Shown here one piece after another: positions 4,431 to 16,924 of a stretch of DNA of 32,849 nt (position 1 is the stretch's first letter; each line of letters begins with the position of its first letter). The notes below the pieces were generated by a model. The model did not search any database and was not told where the DNA came from. It worked only from the letters and a program-made list of their open reading frames with translations. Source of the DNA: Rhodospirillales bacterium 69-11 (lineage in GTDB: Bacteria > Pseudomonadota > Alphaproteobacteria > Acetobacterales > Acetobacteraceae). A program made the position numbers and the translations under genes. The DNA lies in assembly GCA_001898425.1 (NCBI GenBank), contig MKTV01000069.1, positions 1 through 32,849 on the forward strand, written 5' to 3'.

Positions 4431-7400
4431 TCAGAACCGATAGGCCACGCGCAGGCTGCCGCCCTGGCTGAAGAAGTTGGTGGTGGCGCGGACGCCGTAC
4501 TCGGCGCGGACCTCCCACCCTTCCTTCTGATAGAGCTGCGCCCCGGCCGCGAACACGCCGAACGCATCCGGGGAGGTCAGGTAGGTACGGAACGTGCCCG
4601 TCCCCGGCAGCGTGCCCACGAAATGCGCGTCCACCGACCGCGTGCCGCTGGGCAGCACGCTCGCCCCCAGGTCCACGTAGGTCCGCAGCACGGTGTTCGG
4701 GCCGAGATCGGTGCGGCTGCCGATCTCCATCGTCGCACTCACCGCCGTCCGCGTGCTGTCGCTCGACCCGACCGAGAGCGCCATGCCGCTCGCGCCACTC
4801 TCGGCATAGGCGGGGGTGTGGAGATGGAAGACATCCACGTCGACGAACGGCCGCAGGTAGAAATGCTCGAACGGCACGTCGTAGGCCGCCCGCAACCGCG
4901 CGCCATAGAGCAGCGCGCTCGAATCGCTGCGCAGGACGGCGGATTGGCCCGGCAAGGTCACCACCCGCTCGTTGCTGAAGCTGCCGCCCTCGATCGCGAC
5001 GGAGGCAGCGAACAGCCACGGTCCGGTGACGTATTTCAGCGCGACGCTGCCGTCATAGACCTGGCCGGAGCTCGACGATCCGCCCGACTGGCTGGCCCAG
5101 AGCGTACCGGTCGCGAGCGAGCCGCCGATCGCCCAGCCCGGTGCGAAGCTCGCCTGGCCGCCGATCCGATAAGTTGCGGATGAAACCGAACTGCCGCTGT
5201 CCCACCGGTCCGTGGAGTCGCCCCCGACCTTCACCCAGGCGCAGCGCCCCTCACCCAGCAGCGTGGTCGCGCCCTCGAATTGCGGGCAGCTCATGGCGGC
5301 ACCCAGCACGTTGCCGGACAGGTCGGCGAGCGTGCTGGCCGCCACCTGGGTGGACAGGGGCGATGCCTGCTGCAGCACGTTCGCGTAGCCCGCCGCGGTG
5401 CCGACGCCGTTGTAGAGCGCGGCGAACACCGGTGCGAGCGCCGGATCCGCAGCCGCCCAGCCGCGCGCCAGGTAGCTCGCGACGGACGTCTCGCTCGCGG
5501 TCAGTGTCGCACCCGCGGGCATGAAGTTGGCGGTTGGCGTGATCGTGGCCGTCGTGCCGCTCTGCTGCAGGTTCCAGCCGAACAGGTAGGTCTGCGGCGT
5601 CGCGGCACTCAGCGCGAGGCTGGAGGCGGCGCGCAGCACGGTGTCGGTGAAGGGCAGCAGCGTGGTGCCGACCATGGGCGCGACGGTGCCGTCCACCTGG
5701 GCGATGGTGCCGATCGACAGGGTGTGGCTGTTCACCCCGTCGAAGGCGAAGGTGAGCTGCCCGGTGCCGCTCTGCGCGAAGTTGCCGGTCAGCGTGGTGG
5801 TGCCGGGCTGCAGCCGGATCGTGCCGCTGTTCTGCAGGCTCGCTGCGGTGACCTGGCTTCCCAGCACGAGCGTGCCGCCGGCATTGTTGGTGACCGATCC
5901 GGGAGTGCGGCCCAGCAGGATGTTGCCCGTGATGGTGCCGCTGTTGCTGATGTTGGTGATCCCGTAATCGGTGGTGATCGCCGTGCCGCTCACGCCGTCG
6001 ACGGTCGCGACGGAGCCGCCCGCCAGCACGGTGATCGTGTTGGCCGCCGCGGGCGCGACGCTGCCCGGCAGTACGCCGCCCGACACCAGGATGCCGGCGG
6101 CGCCCGCGCCCCCGCTCACGCCGGCATTGGTGCCGCCGGTCACGCTGCCGCCGATGCTGATGGTGATCGGCTGGGTGTAGACGCTCTTGCCGGTGCTCTG
6201 CGCGATGATGCCGATCGAGCCGGGACCGGAGGCGAGGATGGCACCGCCCGTCTGGGTGACGGTGACTGCCATGCCCTCCCCGGCATAGGTCTGGTCGGAG
6301 CGGCCATAGAACTGCGCGCTGTTGCCGGCCACCAGCGTGGCGCCGGTGCTCAGCCCGCCGCCCGCGGCGATGCCGCCGCCACCTCCCACCGCCTGCGCGA
6401 AGATGCCGTGCGCATTGGCGCCGCTGGTGGTGATGTTGCCGCCGACCGAAACGCTGACCGTTCCGGAATCGGGATAGGCTCCGTTGTTGTTCGGGCGGTC
6501 CGGCAGCGTGTTGGAGACGGGGAACTGCAGCGGCAGGGACGAATCGCCCGCGAACCCGCCGCCGCCGCCGATCGACTGCGCCAGGATGCCCCACGCACCG
6601 GCGCCGGTCGTGGTGATGGCGGCTCCGCTGCCGAGGGTCACCGAGACGCTGCCCCCTTTGGCGGCGTTGCTGCCGGGCTGTCCCTGGGCCGAGGTCGAGC
6701 CGATGCTGACCGCTGGACCGGCCACGAGGCCCCCGCCGCCGCCGATCGACTGCGCCACGATGCCGACGCTGCGGGCGCCGGTGGTGGCGATGGTGCCGCT
6801 GGCGACGGCGACCGTGGCGCTGCCGCCGTTGCCGCTCGCGCCCGATCCGCCGCCCACGGTGAAACTGAAATCCGAGGAGTCGTTCCAGGGCGCCGCGCTG
6901 CCGCCCACGCCGATCTTGTTGTTGCCCAGGCAGCGCGTGGCGGAGACGCCCTGCAATCCCGTCCCGCCGGAATTGCTGCAGCCGGCGCCGCCAAGCCCGC
7001 CGCCGCCGCCGATCGACTGCGCGACGAGACCGTAGGCATCGTCGCCCAGCGTCGCCACCGCCCCCGTGCTGGTGAGGGTGACGGTGCCCCCGCTGCCGCC
7101 GGCCGCGCCGCTGCCGCTCCAGCCGACGCCGAGACCGATCGTGCTCGAGCTGTTCGCGGTGCCCTCCGCGCCGACGCCGCCACCCCCGCCGATCGACTGC
7201 GCCAGCACTGCATGCGCGCCGTAGCCCGCCGTGGCGATGCTGCCGCCGGTGCTGACGCTCACGGTGCCGCCGTTGCCGGCCGATGCGCCCGAACCCCCAA
7301 GGGAAATGCCGATGTTCGCCGTCTGCCGGCTGGTGGAGGTGTTGCCCTCGTCATCGGTCGAGGTGGTCAGGCCGCCGAGGACCGATGTCGCATCGGAGGA

Positions 7401-10400
7401 CGCCACGCCCCCCGTTCCGCCGCCGCCGCCGATCGATTGCGCCAGGATGCCGTAGGCGCGGATCCCCAGGGTCGAGATCGTGCCGGTATTGGTGACCGTG
7501 ACCGATCCGCCATTGCCGCCGGTCCCTCCGCTGCCGCCGATTGCGAGGTTGCCGGTCATGCTGTTGGACGGAGCATTGGCGATGGCCGTGGCCGTCGCAT
7601 CCTCGAGCTGGTCGAGCGCGCCGATCGAGGCCGCCGCGTCGGAGGAGCCGCCGGCCCCGCCACCACCGCCAACCGACTGCGCCAGGATGCCGACTGCGTC
7701 GCCACCCCGGGTGAAGGTGAGTCCGTTTGACAGGCTCTGGGTGGCACCGGTGGCGATCGTACCGTTGTTGGTGACGGAGACCGCGCCGCCGGTGCTGCCG
7801 CCCCCGGCATTGCCGCCCAGGCTGACGTTGATGTCGATCGTGTCGCCGCTGCCGGTCGCCGTCCCGCCGCCGCCATTGCCGCCGCCGCCGCCGATGGACT
7901 GCGCGAGCACGCCTTGCGAGCCGGAGCCGGTGGTGCGGATGGTCGCCGCGGTGTCGTTGAGGACCGTGACGGGTCCGCCCGCGCCGCCGGCGCCGCCTCG
8001 GCCGCCGATCGTGTAGCCCAGACCGACCGAATCGCCGGTGCTGTTGCCCAGGGTCGGGCTCGACGTGCTCGCATCGCCGGCCGCGCCGTTGCCGCCGCCT
8101 CCGCCGATCGACTGCGCGGCGATGCCGGCCGCATGATTGCCGGTGGTCGTCAGCAGCGACTGGCAGCCGGGGCAGCTCTGCGACGTCACGTTCACCGAAC
8201 CGCCGTTGCCCGAAATCCCGCCACTGCCACCCAGGCTCAGGGCGAGCTTGAAGGTCGGGCTGGAGCCCTCGATCGCATAGGCGGAGGCCGTCGAGTCTCC
8301 TCCATTCCCCCCACCGCCGCCGATCGACTGCGCCAGGATGGCGTGAGCGCCGTCCCCGCCGGTGGTGATGATGCCGGTATTGCTGACCGAGACGATGCCG
8401 CCCTGGCTGCCGCTGCCGCCCTTGCCTCCCACGGCGAGGTCGACCGAGACGGTCGGGATTTCCGGATCGCCAACCGTGACCGCGAGGGACTTCGCAGTCG
8501 CCGCGCCGCCGCTGCCGCCACCGCCGCCGACCGATTGCGCGACGATGCCGATCGCATCCGGCCCGCTGGTCGTGATGTGGTACTGGTTGTCGACGGTGAC
8601 CGCTCCGCCCGCGGCGCCTGCCCCGCCGCTGCCGCCCACGTCCACCGCGAGCGCGAAGATGACCGTCGCCTGGTAGGTGTTCGCCGACCCGCCGATCCCG
8701 CCCCCTCCGCCGACGCTGTGCGCCAGCACGCCGAAGGATTGCTGGCCGGTCGTGACGATGCTCTCGGCCGCAGTGACCTGCACGGTGCCGCCGCTGCTGC
8801 CGGCGCCTCCATTCCCGCCGATCGCGGCGGAGAGCGCTGCGAGCGAATAGGTCTTGGAATAGCCCCCGTTGCCGCCACCGCCGCCGATCGACTGCGCCAC
8901 CACCGCCGCGGCGAAGTCGCCGCCGGTGCTGATGCTGCCGTTGCTCAGCCCAAGCGTGACCGATCCCCCCAGGCCGCCCCCCCCACCGGCGCCACTGACC
9001 GCCGCGGCGATTCCGGTTGCGTTGCCGCCATTGCCGCCGCCGCCACCGATGCTGTGGGCGAGCAGCCCGATCGCGCCGTCCCCGGCGGTGCTCAGCGTGC
9101 CGCTATGAGTCACCTGCACAATGCCGCCGTTGCCGCCGTCGCCGCCGGTCGTTCCGACCGCGATGATGCCGCCGGTTCCGGTCGCGGTGCCGCCGCCGCC
9201 GCCCACGCTCTCGGCCAAAATGCCGATCGCCGCGGCGCCGGTCGTGCCCACGGGACCGCTGCTGGTGATCGTGACGGCACCGCCGCTGGCTCCGTTGCCG
9301 GAACTGCTGCTGCCAAGCAGGTTCAGGATGCCGGGCCTGGTGTCGACGACGCCGCCGGACCCGCCCACGCTCAGGCCGAGGATGCCGATCGCGCCGGAAC
9401 CGGTGGTGGTCACCGACCCGGTATTGGTCACCGTGACGCCGGCGGGCGACCCGGACCCGGGCCCGACCTGGTCGATCGTGCCCTGGCCATTGGTGACCGC
9501 CATCAGACCGGCGCCGCGCCCGCCCGTCGAGCTGACGGCGGCAAGTCCGATCGCGACGTCACCCTGGGTCGAGATGCTGCCCCCGTTGCTGACCGTCACC
9601 GCACCGGCATTGCCGGCCGGCGCACGGCTCGTCGGCACCGCATTGGGCGAACCGCCGTTCTCCAGGCTGACGGGGGGTGCCTGGGTCGTGTTGGCGTTGC
9701 CGCCCGTGCTGACGGCCAGCACGCCGATCGCCAGCTCGCCCGAGGTCGTGATGCTGGAGCCGGCCACCGTGGTGACCACGACGGTGCTGCCGCTGCCGTT
9801 CTGGTGACCGGAACTGACGCCGTTGTCCTCATACCAGGACAGGCCACCCGTGCTCAGCGCGACCACGCCGGCGCCGTAGTCGCCCGACATCGCGATCGTG
9901 CCGGTGCTGCCGAGCGTGACCTTGACCGGGCCGGCATTGCCGCCGAGCAGGGAGTATTGGCTGTCGGTCGCGCCGGACACGCCGCCGGTCGACGCCGCAT
10001 AGATCCCGACCGCGCCCGTTGCCGCCCCGGCGATGCTGCCGCCGGCGGTGACGGTCACGCTGCTCCCATTGCCGCCGCTGTCGAAGTTGTGGTGGCTGCC
10101 GCTCGAATAGCCCGGCCCCTGCCCGCCGACGCTGAGGGCCGCGATGCCCGCGGTGTAGCTGCCGCCCAGCGTGATCTGCGAACCGGCATTCGTGGTGACG
10201 GTGACCGAACCCGCATCGCCGCCTGGACCGTTGGACCGATCCCCCGTGGCATCCGCCGTACCCGCGCCACCATCGGACCGCGCGAGGATCGCGGCGCCGA
10301 TGGGTTGCCCGACGCCACCGGACCCAGGGAGGAAGCCGCCCCGGCCGGCCGACAGGCTGATGCTGCCGCCGTTGGTGACCGAGACGGCGTTGGCGTTGCG

Positions 10401-10901
10401 CCCCATGTAGTGGTTGTTCGGCGCGGAGGAGCCGTCGTCCACGATCTGGTCCGCAACGCCGGCGGCTCCCGTGGAGGTCACGACCAACCCCGACAGCGTG
10501 CTGCCTTGCGCGCTGACGGTGCCCGTGTTGGTGGCCGTCATCAGTGGCGAGAACAGCCAGGGATAGACGTTGTAGGTCGCGCTCCCTGCCTCGTTGATCG
10601 GGACGCCCAGCCCGCCGAAGGTGAAGGCCGCGTCGCCGCCGTTGCTGGTGAGCGTCCCGCCGTTGGTCAGCGTACCCGAGACGTACGCGGGCTCCCCCAC
10701 GAGTTCGACCATCGGCCCGGACGCGGTCCCCGACACCTGGCAGGATAAGCTGAACCCGATCGCGCCATAGCCATTGTTCGCGTTGGCTCCGGCGGAGCAA
10801 CTCTGCGCATGGGCGGCGGGCGCGCGCAGTGTTGCCGGCACCCCAATGGCCAGGAGGATGAAGACCGTGCGAGCGGTTTCCCACGCGACCTGCGTGCGCA
10901 T
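4431..10901 (-). CDS. Giant glycine-rich autotransporter (type Va secretion)
   Basis: A 2156-residue secreted surface protein. Residues 1-33 are a signal peptide (MRTQVAWETA, hydrophobic core, AHA before Gln). The passenger holds about 23 copies of a core of the form 'A-x-G-I-x-A-Q-S-I-G-G-G-G-G-x-G', fifteen with five consecutive glycines, each followed by a T/S/V-rich stretch ('VTVTNTGTISTxG') predicted to form parallel beta-helix rungs. The last ~280 residues, starting near CAWVKVGGDST, are an autotransporter beta-barrel ending in RVAYRF with the C-terminal Phe used for outer-membrane assembly. I chose the ATG at 10901 (GGGGGA seven bases upstream) over one seven codons earlier. The role is probably adhesion or surface coating; the ligand is unknown. 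The frame is intact despite heavy internal repetition. Confidence 0.9.
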   Translation of the reverse strand: MRTQVAWETARTVFILLAIGVPATLRAPAAHAQSCSAGANANNGYGAIGFSLSCQVSGTASGPMVELVGEPAYVSGTLTNGGTLTSNGGDAAFTFGGLGVPINEAGSATYNVYPWLFSPLMTATNTGTVSAQGSTLSGLVVTSTGAAGVADQIVDDGSSAPNNHYMGRNANAVSVTNGGSISLSAGRGGFLPGSGGVGQPIGAAILARSDGGAGTADATGDRSNGPGGDAGSVTVTTNAGSQITLGGSYTAGIAALSVGGQGPGYSSGSHHNFDSGGNGSSVTVTAGGSIAGAATGAVGIYAASTGGVSGATDSQYSLLGGNAGPVKVTLGSTGTIAMSGDYGAGVVALSTGGLSWYEDNGVSSGHQNGSGSTVVVTTVAGSSITTSGELAIGVLAVSTGGNANTTQAPPVSLENGGSPNAVPTSRAPAGNAGAVTVSNGGSISTQGDVAIGLAAVSSTGGRGAGLMAVTNGQGTIDQVGPGSGSPAGVTVTNTGSVTTTGSGAIGILGLSVGGSGGVVDTRPGILNLLGSSSSGNGASGGAVTITSSGPVGTTGAAAIGILAESVGGGGGTATGTGGIIAVGTTGGDGGNGGIVQVTHSGTLSTAGDGAIGLLAHSIGGGGGNGGNATGIAAAVSGAGGGGGLGGSVTLGLSNGSISTGGDFAAAVVAQSIGGGGGNGGYSKTYSLAALSAAIGGNGGAGSSGGTVQVTAAESIVTTGQQSFGVLAHSVGGGGGIGGSANTYQATVIFALAVDVGGSGGAGAAGGAVTVDNQYHITTSGPDAIGIVAQSVGGGGGSGGAATAKSLAVTVGDPEIPTVSVDLAVGGKGGSGSQGGIVSVSNTGIITTGGDGAHAILAQSIGGGGGNGGDSTASAYAIEGSSPTFKLALSLGGSGGISGNGGSVNVTSQSCPGCQSLLTTTGNHAAGIAAQSIGGGGGNGAAGDASTSSPTLGNSTGDSVGLGYTIGGRGGAGGAGGPVTVLNDTAATIRTTGSGSQGVLAQSIGGGGGNGGGGTATGSGDTIDINVSLGGNAGGGSTGGAVSVTNNGTIATGATQSLSNGLTFTRGGDAVGILAQSVGGGGGAGGSSDAAASIGALDQLEDATATAIANAPSNSMTGNLAIGGSGGTGGNGGSVTVTNTGTISTLGIRAYGILAQSIGGGGGTGGVASSDATSVLGGLTTSTDDEGNTSTSRQTANIGISLGGSGASAGNGGTVSVSTGGSIATAGYGAHAVLAQSIGGGGGVGAEGTANSSSTIGLGVGWSGSGAAGGSGGTVTLTSTGAVATLGDDAYGLVAQSIGGGGGLGGAGCSNSGGTGLQGVSATRCLGNNKIGVGGSAAPWNDSSDFSFTVGGGSGASGNGGSATVAVASGTIATTGARSVGIVAQSIGGGGGLVAGPAVSIGSTSAQGQPGSNAAKGGSVSVTLGSGAAITTTGAGAWGILAQSIGGGGGFAGDSSLPLQFPVSNTLPDRPNNNGAYPDSGTVSVSVGGNITTSGANAHGIFAQAVGGGGGIAAGGGLSTGATLVAGNSAQFYGRSDQTYAGEGMAVTVTQTGGAILASGPGSIGIIAQSTGKSVYTQPITISIGGSVTGGTNAGVSGGAGAAGILVSGGVLPGSVAPAAANTITVLAGGSVATVDGVSGTAITTDYGITNISNSGTITGNILLGRTPGSVTNNAGGTLVLGSQVTAASLQNSGTIRLQPGTTTLTGNFAQSGTGQLTFAFDGVNSHTLSIGTIAQVDGTVAPMVGTTLLPFTDTVLRAASSLALSAATPQTYLFGWNLQQSGTTATITPTANFMPAGATLTASETSVASYLARGWAAADPALAPVFAALYNGVGTAAGYANVLQQASPLSTQVAASTLADLSGNVLGAAMSCPQFEGATTLLGEGRCAWVKVGGDSTDRWDSGSSVSSATYRIGGQASFAPGWAIGGSLATGTLWASQSGGSSSSGQVYDGSVALKYVTGPWLFAASVAIEGGSFSNERVVTLPGQSAVLRSDSSALLYGARLRAAYDVPFEHFYLRPFVDVDVFHLHTPAYAESGASGMALSVGSSDSTRTAVSATMEIGSRTDLGPNTVLRTYVDLGASVLPSGTRSVDAHFVGTLPGTGTFRTYLTSPDAFGVFAAGAQLYQKEGWEVRAEYGVRATTNFFSQGGSLRVAYRF
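6189..10299 (-). repeat. Intragenic tandem repeats encoding the IGGGGG cores
   Basis: Within the autotransporter passenger, a near-identical segment (on the + strand CCGCCGCCGATCGACTGCGCC) recurs every ~170-240 bp, matching the protein core A-Q-S-I-G-G-G-G-G. Central copies are the most alike; copies toward both ends have diverged (ARSDGGAG near the start, AQSTGKS near the end). Confidence 0.85.
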
Positions 10902-10980
10902 CGTGCTTTCCCCCAGCGGCATGGACCGCCCAGACTCGTGATCGGAGAGGAGAGCACACGATCGTCTGAATCAAAAGTAA

Positions 10981-14805: not shown

Positions 14806-16047
14806 ATGACCGAGACGAACGAGGCGGATGTCTGCGTGATGGGCGCGGGACCGGTGGGCGGCACGCTCGCCTGCCGGCTCGCGATGGCGGGCGTCCGCAC
14901 CGTGGTGATCGACCGCGCGTCACTGCCGCCCATGGAGCACCCGGCCTTCGACGGCCGCGCCTATGCGATCGCCGCCGGCGTGCGCCCGCTGCTGCAGGAG
15001 GCCGGGTTGTGGGACCGGCTGCCACAGGCGCCCGGCCCGATCCTGGACATCCGCGTCACCGACGGGCGAATCGGGCGCCCCGCCTCCCGGCTGCACCTGC
15101 ATTTCGACCATCGGGAGGCCGGCGCCGAGGCCGCCCCGTTCGGCTGGATGGTGGAGGCGCGCAGCCTGCGGGTCGCGCTGAACGCGCTGATGCCCACGCT
15201 GCCGACCTTACGGGTCTTCGCACCGGCCGAGACCGCGGTGGAGCGGCGGGACGACGGCGTGACCGTGCAGGTTGCCGGTGGCCCGCGCATCGCCTGCCGC
15301 CTCGTTGTGGCCGCCGAAGGCCGCCGCTCGCCTCTGCGGGACCAGGCGCGCATCCCGGTCACCCACCTGCCCTACAACCAGACCGGCATCGTGTGTGCCG
15401 TCGCGCATGACCGGCCGCATCACGGCGTGGCGCTGGAACATTTCCTGCCGGCGGGTCCGTTCGCGCAGCTGCCGATGGCCGCGAGCCCCGACGCCGAAGC
15501 CGGGGGCGCGGCAAACGTGTCGGCGATCGTCTGGACCGACCGCACGGAGCGGGCCGAGAAGCTGATCGCGCTGGACGAGGCGCGCTTCAACCGCGAAATC
15601 GCACGGCGTCTCGGCGACCATCTCGGCGCCGTCCACGTCGTCGGACGCCGCTGGCACTACCCGCTCTCGGCGATGCTGGTGCATCGCTACGTCGACACGC
15701 GGCTCGCTCTCGCAGGAGACGCGGCGCACGGCATCCACCCGATCGCCGGCCAGGGCCTCAACCTCGGCTTCCGCGACGTGATCGCGCTGGCCGACCTGGT
15801 TGCCGAGGCGGTCGCGGCCGGTGACGATCCAGGCAGTGCCGCGCTGCTCGCGCGCTACCAGCGCCGGCGGCGGCCGGACAACATACTGATGCTGGCGATG
15901 ACCGACGGGCTGGACCGGCTGTTCAGTTCGGACCTGCGGCCGCTGCGGCTGGCGCGCGACCTCGGCATTGCCGCGGTCGATCGCGCCGGGCCGCTGAAGC
16001 GGCTGTTCATGCGCCAGGCGATGGGGATCAGCCGGCTGGCGCGCTGA
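14806..16047 (+). CDS. UbiH/UbiF-family FAD-dependent monooxygenase
   Basis: A 413-residue flavoprotein hydroxylase of the ubiquinone-biosynthesis type. The N-terminal dinucleotide motif GAGPVG (13-18) binds FAD, '[10 protein letters not shown]' (170-179) is the DG-type motif, and [21 protein letters not shown] (304-324) is the FAD-ribityl and UbiH-family signature. Such enzymes add ring hydroxyls to octaprenyl or decaprenyl intermediates, usually at the membrane. An AGAGGA Shine-Dalgarno supports the start. Whether it acts at C1, C5 or C6 of the ubiquinone ring cannot be told; alphaproteobacteria use UbiL, UbiM, UbiF and UbiH variants for these steps. Its last 20 bases overlap a small minus-strand ORF. 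Confidence 0.88.
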
Positions 16048-16153
16048 TCCGGCCAGGCTGCGGCGCGGGCTGCGGCCTCGGCTGGGGCTTGGGAGCCGGC
16101 GGAGGCATGGACGGGCCGGAGACCACGTCGAAGTCGAAATCGGAACGGCGCAT
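16028..16153 (-). CDS. Putative 41-residue acidic/proline-rich microprotein downstream of an attenuator
   Basis: ATG at 16153 follows a perfect AGGAGG (16164-16159) with 5-nt spacing, a better ribosome site than most genes here. The product begins [19 protein letters not shown] and continues as a Pro/Gln/Lys/Arg tail ([13 protein letters not shown]) to a TGA at 16028. It has no Trp, Tyr or Cys and no membrane segment. I do not recognise a family. It is the first reading frame after the aromatic leader peptide and terminator at 16223-16333, so it is the apparent target of that attenuator. Its end overlaps ubiH-like coding sequence by 20 bp, convergently. It may be a real small protein, or the remnant left when the original attenuated gene was lost. 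Confidence 0.5.
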
Positions 16154-16222
16154 GGGAACCTCCTGTTGGGAAGGCCACCCTGTCCGACGGATTTCCGGGC
16201 ACATGGACCCGCAGAAACACGA

Positions 16223-16244
16223 AAGCCGCCGGAGAGGGCGGCTT
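16223..16244 (-). terminator. Attenuator terminator hairpin
   Basis: Reading the minus strand, AAGCCGCC (16244-16237) pairs perfectly with GGCGGCTT (16230-16223) around a 6-nt loop, extended by a G-U pair. It is followed by TCGTGTTTCTG, a moderately U-rich tail. It lies 27 nt after the leader peptide stop and ~60 nt before the Shine-Dalgarno of the 41-codon ORF. Confidence 0.7.
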
Positions 16245-16295
16245 CGGGAACTTGCTACGGGTGCACGATCCTAGGCCGCCGGTCTGTACCAGCGG
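16223..16295 (-). promoter_or_regulatory. Ribosome-mediated transcription attenuator (alternative hairpins 1:2, 2:3, 3:4)
   Basis: Four segments can pair in the classical way. Segment 1 CCGCTGG (16295-16289, inside the leader codons) pairs all seven bases, one as G-U, with segment 2 CCGGCGG (16282-16276). Segment 2 GGCGGC (16280-16275) can instead pair with segment 3 GCCGCC (16242-16237). Segment 3 forms the terminator with segment 4. A ribosome stalled at the Trp or Tyr codons would cover segment 1, favour the 2:3 antiterminator and allow read-through. The pairings are read directly; the mechanism is inferred from trp attenuators. Confidence 0.65.
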
Positions 16296-16333
16296 TACCA
16301 AAATCGCGAGGCGGGACGTCGCGTCTGTGCCAT
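16271..16333 (-). CDS. Aromatic amino-acid leader peptide (TrpL-like)
   Basis: A 20-codon ORF (MAQTRRPAS, then [11 protein letters not shown]) with one Phe, two Trp and two Tyr codons among six consecutive residues, ending in TAG just before the attenuator terminator. Such clustering of rare aromatic codons before alternative hairpins is diagnostic of amino-acid-sensing leader peptides. No Shine-Dalgarno precedes the ATG. A possible promoter at 16341-16369 would start transcription at or next to the ATG, making the message leaderless; the trpL leader of Sinorhizobium meliloti is known to be leaderless. The downstream gene is not a recognisable trp, phe or aro gene. The reading frame is open upstream, so a longer product is formally possible. 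Confidence 0.6.
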
Positions 16334-16340
16334 GCCGCTG

Positions 16341-16369
16341 CGTTTAGCGCGCTGCGGACTGGGATGCAA
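16341..16369 (-). promoter_or_regulatory. Candidate promoter of the leader peptide
   Basis: On the minus strand TTGCAT (16369-16364) and TAAACG (16346-16341) are separated by 17 bp. The predicted start is about 16334, the base before the leader ATG. The match is modest, but position and leaderless geometry support it. The -35 box overlaps the end of the adjoining palindromic repeat. Confidence 0.35.
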
Positions 16370-16621
16370 GCGGGTGAACTGGGGCTCCGCCCAAACCCGC
16401 CAGGGGCTCTGCCCCTGGACCCCGCTAAGGGCCAGCGGCCCTTAGGATCCCATCCGTTGGGGGTCTTGGGGGAGGGCCGACCCGGTCCTTGGCATGGTCT
16501 GCGTAGGCCCTCCCCCAAGACCCCCAACCGAGCGGTTCCAAGGGGCGTCGCCCCTTGGTGGGGGTGCAGGGGGCAAAGCCCCCGCCGGGGTCTGGGGCGG
16601 AGCCCCAGCACGCCTGCTTGC
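16366..16621. repeat. Large imperfect inverted-repeat element (MITE-like / dispersed palindrome)
   Basis: Two ~110-bp arms are related as inverted copies about a 27-nt centre (16479-16505). The inner 22 bp are perfect (16457-16478 with 16506-16527, TTGGGGGTCTTGGGGGAGGG...). The outer parts are alike with small gaps, ending in GCAAGC (16366-16371) and GCTTGC (16616-16621). Each arm contains its own small palindromes (GGGGCTCTGCCCC, AAGGGCCAGCGGCCCTT, AAGGGGCGTCGCCCCTT). No transposase ORF is present. Similar GC-rich mosaic palindromes are, to my knowledge, common between genes in Acetobacteraceae. No protein is supported between 16334 and 16699. Confidence 0.75.
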
Positions 16622-16647
16622 GCCCCCGGCCCGCGACCCGCTATACG
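16618..16647 (+). promoter_or_regulatory. Candidate rpmE promoter
   Basis: TTGCGC (16618-16623) and TATACG (16642-16647) with an 18-bp spacer lie 53 bp before the rpmE ATG. The first bases of the -35 are the terminal GCTTGC of the palindromic element, mirroring the leader promoter at the other end. Confidence 0.4.
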
Positions 16648-16699
16648 CCGCGGCTTCGCGCGGCCGGTCGGGATCGGCGGCGCCGTCAGGAGTTTGGCC

Positions 16700-16924
16700 A
16701 TGAAATCCGGGATTCACCCCGAGTATCACGAGATCACCGTCATCATGACGGATGGCACGCAGTTCAAGACCCGGTCCTGCATGGGCAAGGCGGGCGACAC
16801 GCTGCGGCTGGACATCGATCCGAAGTCGCATCCCGCCTGGACGGGCCAGCAGCGCATCATCGATACGGGCGGTCAGGTGGCCAAGTTCAACAAGAAGTTC
16901 GCGGGTCTCGGCCTCAAGCGCTGA
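16700..16924 (+). CDS. rpmE: 50S ribosomal protein L31
   Basis: A 74-residue protein with the L31 signature throughout: [16 protein letters not shown], '[18 protein letters not shown]' and '[13 protein letters not shown]'. L31 bridges the two ribosomal subunits. Only one cysteine (Cys27) is present, so the four-Cys zinc site of the zinc-binding L31 type is missing; this is the zinc-independent form usual in alphaproteobacteria. An AGGAG lies eight bases before the ATG. A longer in-frame start upstream would read through the repeat element and was rejected. A heat-shock-type promoter for the next gene begins 15 bp after the stop. Confidence 0.96.

Follow-up and report, generated by a model that had tools for sequence, protein, structure and literature searches.

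The Escherichia coli attenuators trpL and pheL work through 1:2, 2:3, and 3:4 pairings of the leader RNA, with control codons in region 1, and each answers to one amino acid and has a biosynthetic operon directly behind it; the E. coli genes for 3-deoxy-D-arabino-heptulosonate 7-phosphate synthase (DAHPS) are controlled by TyrR and TrpR. Here we describe an attenuator that has the same pairing logic and placement of control codons, but whose leader combines codons for three aromatic amino acids. It probably senses the charging of tRNAPhe, tRNATrp, and tRNATyr, with a conserved microprotein gene as its constant target. It lies in the window, by which we mean the whole analyzed stretch of 32,849 nucleotides (contig C69, MKTV01000069.1) from the 6.48 Mb genome of Rhodospirillales bacterium 69-11, on the minus strand between rpmE and a convergent UbiH-family hydroxylase gene. 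Among the organisms used for comparison, Acholeplasma belongs to another phylum than the Alphaproteobacteria that carry this attenuator.

Among the closest known systems is trpL, an attenuator that precedes trpE(G) in Sinorhizobium meliloti and other Rhizobiales (yielding the sRNA rnTrpL and the peptide peTrpL) and is likewise alphaproteobacterial and ribosome-mediated; published accounts drawn on in this study are PMC8632094, PMC2965389, and PMC7298713. The S. meliloti trpL transcript starts at the leader ATG, as we predict for the attenuator described here, and in both cases the attenuator products could act in trans. Unlike the Rhizobiales trpL, with its run of consecutive Trp codons and its trpE(G) immediately downstream, the present leader has Phe, Trp, and Tyr codons and is followed by a microprotein gene, behind which DAHPS or trpG stands only in some lineages. 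In Bacillus subtilis, uncharged tRNATrp switches on rtpA, whose small product, anti-TRAP, regulates the pathway in trans, the same route from starvation signal to small regulatory protein that we propose here. This analogy is of logic only: rtpA is governed by a T-box RNA rather than by a leader peptide attenuator, and anti-TRAP is a zinc-binding protein with a known target, in contrast to the short motif and proline-rich tail found here. The Acholeplasma uORFC-13-1 motif upstream of aroF has been proposed to be a leader open reading frame (ORF) attenuator of DAHP synthase, an arrangement also seen in some lineages here, but its U run codes for Phe, and the part of the account drawn on mentions no small gene before aroF. 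No earlier description of our attenuator or of the microprotein was found in the open-access library searched.

A preliminary description of the locus had proposed a 20-codon leader peptide with FWYRWY, a terminator, and competing 1:2 and 2:3 pairings on the minus strand, and ORF, folding, and recurrence of the arrangement in 28 of the 33 genomes of the genus (Rhodopila, Acetobacteraceae; DNA search, window genome counted) bear out each of these parts (Table 1). The leader ORF is short, abounds in codons for the three aromatic residues (F11, W12, Y13, W15, and Y16 in its core), and overlaps region 1. The predicted fold of the leader RNA combines the 1:2 hairpin and the terminator (-54.2 kcal/mol), and a fold of 184 nt has z = -2.95 against shuffles; the 1:2 hairpin, a long one, is built from the codons of F-W-Y-R-W together with the final part of the leader ORF. 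The terminator, GAAGCCGCC-CTCTCC-GGCGGCTTT (16245-16222), is the one terminator-like site in a scan of 15900-16750, for which shuffling gives an expectation of 0.5. Once the 3' arm of the terminator is withheld, the 2:3 pairing of GGCGGC with GCCGCC appears (-18.9 kcal/mol), and both of its segments are nearly invariant across 55 sequences. By this invariance and these energies, covariation aside, the 1:2, 2:3, and 3:4 pairings appear mutually exclusive, as an attenuator requires.

The same alignment of 55 leaders holds a near-invariant region, CGATTTTGGTACCGCTGGTA. In 74 of 82 relatives, the 1:2 hairpin pairs at least 5 of the 9 bases of CGATTTTGG (P > 0.5), and a partner outside the hairpin for this invariant segment was considered and dropped, the hairpin accounting for those 74. 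Pairing of the bases concerned in the 1:2 hairpin (the same 74 of 82 sequences) also explains why two leader codons do not vary: the Phe codon is TTT in all 89 non-redundant relatives, with a search pattern that allowed TTC, and the Arg codon before it is CGA in all 88 readable relatives, with a pattern that left this codon open, compared with backgrounds at the same loci of 17% TTT among Phe codons and 14% CGA among Arg codons (frames of at least 350 codons, all six frames).

The putative leader promoter also recurs. In 78 of 87 sequences, a TTGC is followed, after a spacer of 16-18 nt, by an A-containing -10 element whose end lies 6 or 7 nt upstream of the leader ATG; the scan used for this scored -10 distances of 4-10 nt from the ATG more favorably. 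In a count free of this spacing bias, 52 of 75 named loci (defined below) have a TTGC starting 35-37 nt ahead of the closest in-frame ATG, and no other single offset between -50 and -5 has it in more than 4 of the 75. A consensus scan of 15900-16750 listed no sigma-70 site. Such a placement of the promoter predicts a leaderless transcript, one that begins at the leader ATG or right beside it.

Among relatives, a covariance model built from 55 sequences (the window and several of the searched genomes included) matched 51 of 299 genomes of the order at E 1e-4, a count that strict filters make a lower bound. There is one match per genome, except that an identical stretch lies on two contigs of G011; in the window genome the model finds the one element only, and its score there is no test because the window sequence is in the model. 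A sample of 387 genomes of the class yielded 27 with a match at E ≤ 1e-3. Twelve of these matches are strong (E 3.2e-8 or better; the window and some other model members among them), with leaders reading RFWYRWY in six, RYFTRWY and RYFGRWF in two each, and RFYDRWY and RFYGRWF in one each, and the six diverged leaders keep Phe, Tyr, and Trp codons. Of the eleven strong matches beyond the window genome, eight have the small ORF, with neither DAHPS nor trpG visible in the flank; in the other three, DAHPS (recognized by eye) follows immediately and the small ORF is missing. Five further matches (L237-L240, L244) have WYFT leaders with other genes behind them, and the remaining ten seem unrelated by eye. 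The leader control codons, on whose conservation the preliminary description had hung its proposal, are thus kept in relatives. An exception is L217 (G008:C37:115704-115808), from one of the 28 genus genomes with the element, in which TAC has become TAA after FW and places a premature stop in region 1; the small ORF behind it is intact, and a sequencing error is possible.

Four of the WYFT loci, L238-L240 and L244 (G559, G625, G685, G381), belong to another clade, with leaders ending in NAWYFTPLT (KGWYFTSPK in L244) and a similar terminator; at L238 a GNAT acetyltransferase gene comes next, which makes this a second WYF attenuator with an unexpected target. The fifth, L237 (G638:C27), has the leader FRPWYFTLHT and a terminator before an 88-residue protein with weak, sub-cut-off matches to S4 and to the C-terminal part of tyrosyl-tRNA synthetase.

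For a set of named loci, a DNA pattern fixing the leader core and CGGCGG was used; 80 of 97 stretches were taken and 79 kept, L104 (Angelakisella) being removed as a chance match. Some of these assemblies are also among the genomes searched above. The titles are mostly Acetobacteraceae, Azospirillum, Rhodospirillales, and unclassified alphaproteobacterial or proteobacterial metagenome-assembled genomes (MAGs), with one MAG labelled Rhizobium. Behind the leader, at a distance of 105-139 nt, 69 of the 79 loci have a small ORF with the N-terminal core FDFDV[IV][TS]GP, as a separate ORF in 66 and fused in frame to a longer protein in three. We define the FDFDV family by a DFDV core no more than about 20 residues from the ORF start, at 105-142 nt from the leader stop, and the window ORF fits this definition. 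Of the other ten, four are on contigs that end too soon, five have DAHPS directly behind, and one (L147) has neither. The 41-codon frame with its AGGAGG, which the preliminary description could not place, is therefore a real gene. A longer frame of 58 codons from an in-frame ATG at 16204 is possible in the window, but the small ORFs of relatives align from 16153.

Because the small ORFs were chosen by DFDV-like patterns (a first pass set aside 17 loci, from which L150 and the three fused forms were later recovered), the invariance of D-F-D-V is partly by construction. Of the 75 loci with enough sequence, 69 have the motif M..D[FY]DV behind the leader; the motif appeared in none of 3750 shuffled stretches and on none of the 75 reverse strands. 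Behind the core, Gly (65/77) and Pro (71/77), which the motif leaves unfixed, are each written with four codons; residues kept while their codons vary argue that the microprotein is selected as a protein. In the genus, all 17 small-ORF matches at E < 0.01 (16 genomes) sit behind the attenuator. Scans of the small ORF against Pfam, NCBIfam, and PHROGs (Pfam and NCBIfam also for two leaders) gave no family above cut-off. Such weak matches as appeared were scattered, the best Pfam value being E 0.014, for 1 of 71 members, and the best PHROGs value E 0.037, and the single match among PDB sequences (E 0.35) was judged to be chance. A DNA search of plasmid records led to one further place, in Azospirillum thermophilum, where the microprotein gene lies behind a leader ending in RYFGRWFRLAA, for which the record lists no feature, and a terminator; there it is annotated as a 55-residue 'hypothetical protein' (WP_168220556.1) beginning MFDFDVVTGP, and a convergent gene overlaps its end. 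A search of plasmid records with the small-ORF protein returned no matches. The three fused forms are L121:860-1636, L133:6445-7242, and L161:107-871, of which L133 and L161, the two scanned, match SBP_bac_11 (PF13531); these fusions may be a clue to function or may be chance.

A hairpin over the Shine-Dalgarno site of the small ORF is kept in register among relatives: 428 of 532 cells are paired in 76 sequences (one more was dropped for lack of an anchor), compared with 313 and 304 when the arms are slid by one. The excess over re-dealt partners is small (mean 421, with 0 of 2000 re-dealings reaching 428), matched variants such as GGTCTC/GAGACC and GGCTTCC/GGAAGCC occur, and free folding of the segment is mildly better than in shuffles (mean z -1.06 over 77 sequences).

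The preliminary description had set this locus apart from attenuators that control trp, phe, or aro genes, a contrast that fails, since relatives have class II DAHPS or trpG behind the element, usually with the small ORF between. Class II DAHPS follows in 18 of the 79 named loci (13 behind the small ORF, 5 without it) and trpG in 17, and in 13 of these 17 the small-ORF stop and the trpG start overlap by 4 nt (ATGA), as they do with DAHPS in L113, L130, L136, and L141. Family scans confirm TrpG and TrpD for L107, the TrpG type for L119, and DAHPS for L130. Another 35 loci have neither enzyme within 900 nt (31 with a separate small ORF, 3 fused, 1 without), and nine contigs are too short to call the follower. 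Among the 34 loci with a small ORF and neither enzyme (Azospirillum, Dongia, and Roseomonas among them), the recognized neighbor is convergent in 10, and no gene was recognized in 15 among the ORFs scanned (39 in all, on MAG contigs that may be cut). The follower thus varies from locus to locus and the small ORF stays, which makes the small ORF the constant and the follower the variable. In three Rhodopila-type loci (L105, L115, L151), a luciferase-like monooxygenase gene (PF00296) lies 68-95 nt behind the small ORF on the same strand and may share the read-through transcript.

Within the genus, class II DAHPS stands directly behind 16 of the 28 attenuators and is absent from this position in 12, including the window. 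The DFDV core is kept in all 12 of the latter and in 11 of the 16 with adjacent DAHPS (p 0.05, kinship ignored). In the named set, with the nine short contigs dropped, it is missing from 5 of 18 loci with DAHPS versus 1 of 52 others (p 0.004, again ignoring kinship). Co-occurrence of attenuator and DAHPS was discarded as a clue, the class II enzyme being present in 296 of the 299 order genomes. Nine genomes (G020, G011, G012, G021, G022, G024, G025, G029, G032) have two class II DAHPS genes, one behind the attenuator and one elsewhere. By eye, a promoter- or operator-like stretch resembling TAGCCATT...TTTCGCGACATAA lies upstream of the class II DAHPS start in many genus genomes (L069-L098), and also between the small ORF and DAHPS at some attenuator loci (G013).

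From the anatomy, conservation, and genomic contexts observed here, we infer ribosome stalling, read-through, translation of the microprotein, and its action in trans, as follows. Transcription would start at or beside the leader ATG. With Phe, Trp, and Tyr all plentiful, the ribosome would finish the leader, whose stop codon lies in region 2; the GCCGCC/GGCGGC terminator would form, and a short RNA would be released. In aromatic shortage, the ribosome would stall at the F-W-Y codons 11-13 and open the 1:2 hairpin, region 2 would then hold region 3, and polymerase would read into the FDFDV microprotein gene. F11, W12, and Y13 are the likely sensing codons: if a ribosome is assumed to shield 12 nt past its A codon, the GGCGGC partner of region 3 stays accessible during a stall at W12 or Y13, and most of it is hidden during one at W15 or Y16. 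In other lineages, the same read-through would also feed class II DAHPS or trpG, and a switch with no such enzyme behind it must work either in trans or on an unrelated follower. For the window, only action in trans is left, since the follower is convergent and the microprotein gene is the sole gene behind the switch. No such leader was seen in the 260 nt upstream of the single class II DAHPS gene of the window genome (contig C32), nor before its single trpE-type gene, which lies closely behind an upstream ORF, so here we expect the response to be exerted in trans, by either the microprotein or the terminated RNA. Most simply, the microprotein would relay aromatic starvation by acting on the shikimate or tryptophan pathway, through one of its enzymes or regulators. 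We rank the microprotein first of the two because it is conserved as a protein, in step with the attenuator, and rank the terminated RNA second because S. meliloti offers such a case.

Several points weigh against this account. With region 2 free, free-energy folding still prefers the terminator (-25.0 kcal/mol) over the 2:3 pairing, so antitermination would have to be kinetic. A ribosome stalled at the second W-Y pair of the leader would probably hide region 2. The preliminary description had suggested a search of relatives with covariance analysis of the stems, and although leader, pairings, terminator, promoter, and ORF prove to be widely conserved, covariation is almost absent, with a double change in 1 of 15 pairs; region 2 must match both region 1 and region 3, and for this reason the arms would hardly drift. 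Only about nine residues of the microprotein are conserved, ahead of a variable, proline-rich tail, and the hairpin over its Shine-Dalgarno site may limit its translation. Finally, among the 34 loci that lack both DAHPS and trpG, 9 have another recognized gene on the same strand within 350 nt (5 within 100 nt), encoding HAD, P450, luciferase-like (three), and other proteins, and at these 9 the microprotein may not be the only target of the switch.

These followers also bear on other explanations. The small ORF could be a second cis-acting upstream ORF, a translational coupler or arrest peptide yielding no functional protein, and its 4-nt overlaps with trpG and DAHPS, the hairpin at its Shine-Dalgarno site, the restriction of conservation to an N-terminal part followed by prolines, and the nine same-strand genes all fit such a role; in the window and at ten of the 34 loci, however, the recognized neighbor is convergent and an ORF acting in cis would have nothing to control, so that we consider this explanation quite unlikely. 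The microprotein might instead act specifically on class II DAHPS, for example by relieving feedback inhibition, and be redundant where the attenuator itself drives that gene. Losses of the core in the genus, found only beside an adjacent DAHPS (5 of 16 versus 0 of 12), may point in this direction, but DAHPS is nearly universal in the order and the attenuator is present in 51 of its genomes, so the presence of the enzyme does not discriminate; this more specific role seems to us unlikely.

Action of the terminated leader RNA or the leader peptide in trans, in the manner of rnTrpL and peTrpL and with the small ORF secondary, would agree with the predicted leaderless start, as for trpL, with the near-invariant CGATTTTGGTACCGCTGGTA, and with the lack of a biosynthetic gene behind the element in the window. 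That invariance is largely accounted for by the 1:2 hairpin, the small ORF and the attenuator are conserved together, and a duplex test, by a crude whole-RNA method, gave no signal against the DAHPS start in nine genomes or the trpE start in the window genome, all of which leaves this reading improbable. The preliminary description had offered either an aromatic-responsive microprotein system or an orphaned attenuator, and the former has proved the better guess, the ORF being conserved as a protein and a constant partner of the attenuator. An orphan in decay, whose biosynthetic gene has moved off and left nothing functional behind, could explain why the class II DAHPS of the window lineage is on another contig with its own upstream region when congeners have it behind the attenuator, as well as the stop codon in the G008 leader. 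Yet the promoter-like sites, leader codons, pairings, terminator, and small ORF are all intact in the window, 34 of the 79 named loci keep the small ORF without DAHPS or trpG, and the core is lost in none of the 12 such genus genomes. With the 41-codon gene recurring with a conserved core behind the leader whether or not biosynthetic genes are present, decay is very improbable.

Table 1. Features of the attenuator locus and its neighbors in the window.
Feature	Position	Strand	Basis
-35-like TTGCAT of leader promoter	16364..16369	-	promoter scan; offset count in relatives
-10-like TAAACG, ending 7 nt before leader ATG	16341..16346	-	promoter scan
Leader peptide ORF, 20 codons	16271..16333	-	ATG at 16333, stop 16271-16273; relatives compared
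Predicted 1:2 protector hairpin (region 1, 16288-16308; region 2, 16264-16283)	16264..16308	-	folding
Predicted 2:3 antiterminator (GGCGGC 16275-16280 with GCCGCC 16237-16242)	16237..16280	-	folding; near-invariant
Predicted 3:4 intrinsic terminator hairpin, T-rich tail to ~16213	16222..16245	-	terminator scan, alignment
CGGAAATCCGTC, resembling region 3; could pair with region 4 (tentative)	16186..16197	-	pairing test
Hairpin over Shine-Dalgarno site (GGCCTTC 16170-16176 with GGAGGTT 16157-16163)	16157..16176	-	register test
Microprotein gene, 41 codons	16028..16153	-	ORF, relatives aligned; Shine-Dalgarno AGGAGG 16159-16164
Microprotein conserved core, FDFDVVSGP	16112..16138	-	alignment of relatives
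UbiH-family hydroxylase gene, convergent to microprotein gene	14806-16047	+	family scan
rpmE (50S L31)	16700-16924	+	family scan

Downstream of the terminator, a CGAAAT-CGCC element (16186-16197 and its counterparts in relatives) could pair with region 4 after read-through, a suggestion that the pairing test favors slightly (mean z -0.70 over 74 sequences; -0.6 in the window). The only gene that the preliminary description saw after the 41-codon frame, a convergent ubiH-like gene, is indeed of the UbiH family, and its 3' end shares 20 nt with the microprotein ORF. An Rfam scan of the window returned no family at the gathering threshold, T-box included. The stretch separating rpmE from the attenuator holds a GC-rich element (16356-16631) with an 80-nt inverted repeat, 73% complementary, and similar pieces are present on five other contigs of the window genome; by these copies it is a small mobile repeat or one like the repetitive extragenic palindromic (REP) elements. 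Elsewhere in the window, at 4431-10922 on the minus strand, a 2163-codon ORF has glycine-rich repeats and, by eye, an autotransporter-like C-terminus.

The locus offers a concrete and testable case of an amino acid attenuator whose constant target would be a microprotein rather than a biosynthetic enzyme, with a single leader that combines Phe, Trp, and Tyr codons at the point of entry into the shikimate pathway, and with one regulatory RNA followed by a constant small gene and then, depending on the lineage, by aroG or trpG. The simplest reading is a three-amino-acid attenuator with the microprotein gene as its stable partner, behind which certain lineages have an enzyme gene of the common pathway (DAHPS) or of the Trp branch (trpG), in some cases with the microprotein core lost. 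Tentatively, as a proposal that we hold to be possible and somewhat short of an even chance, the FDFDV family may be a trans-acting messenger of aromatic starvation in Rhodospirillales-type Alphaproteobacteria, to which cis control of DAHPS or trpG was added later, sometimes replacing the microprotein. If the microprotein does act in trans, it would constitute a new link between tRNA charging and enzyme control in Alphaproteobacteria.

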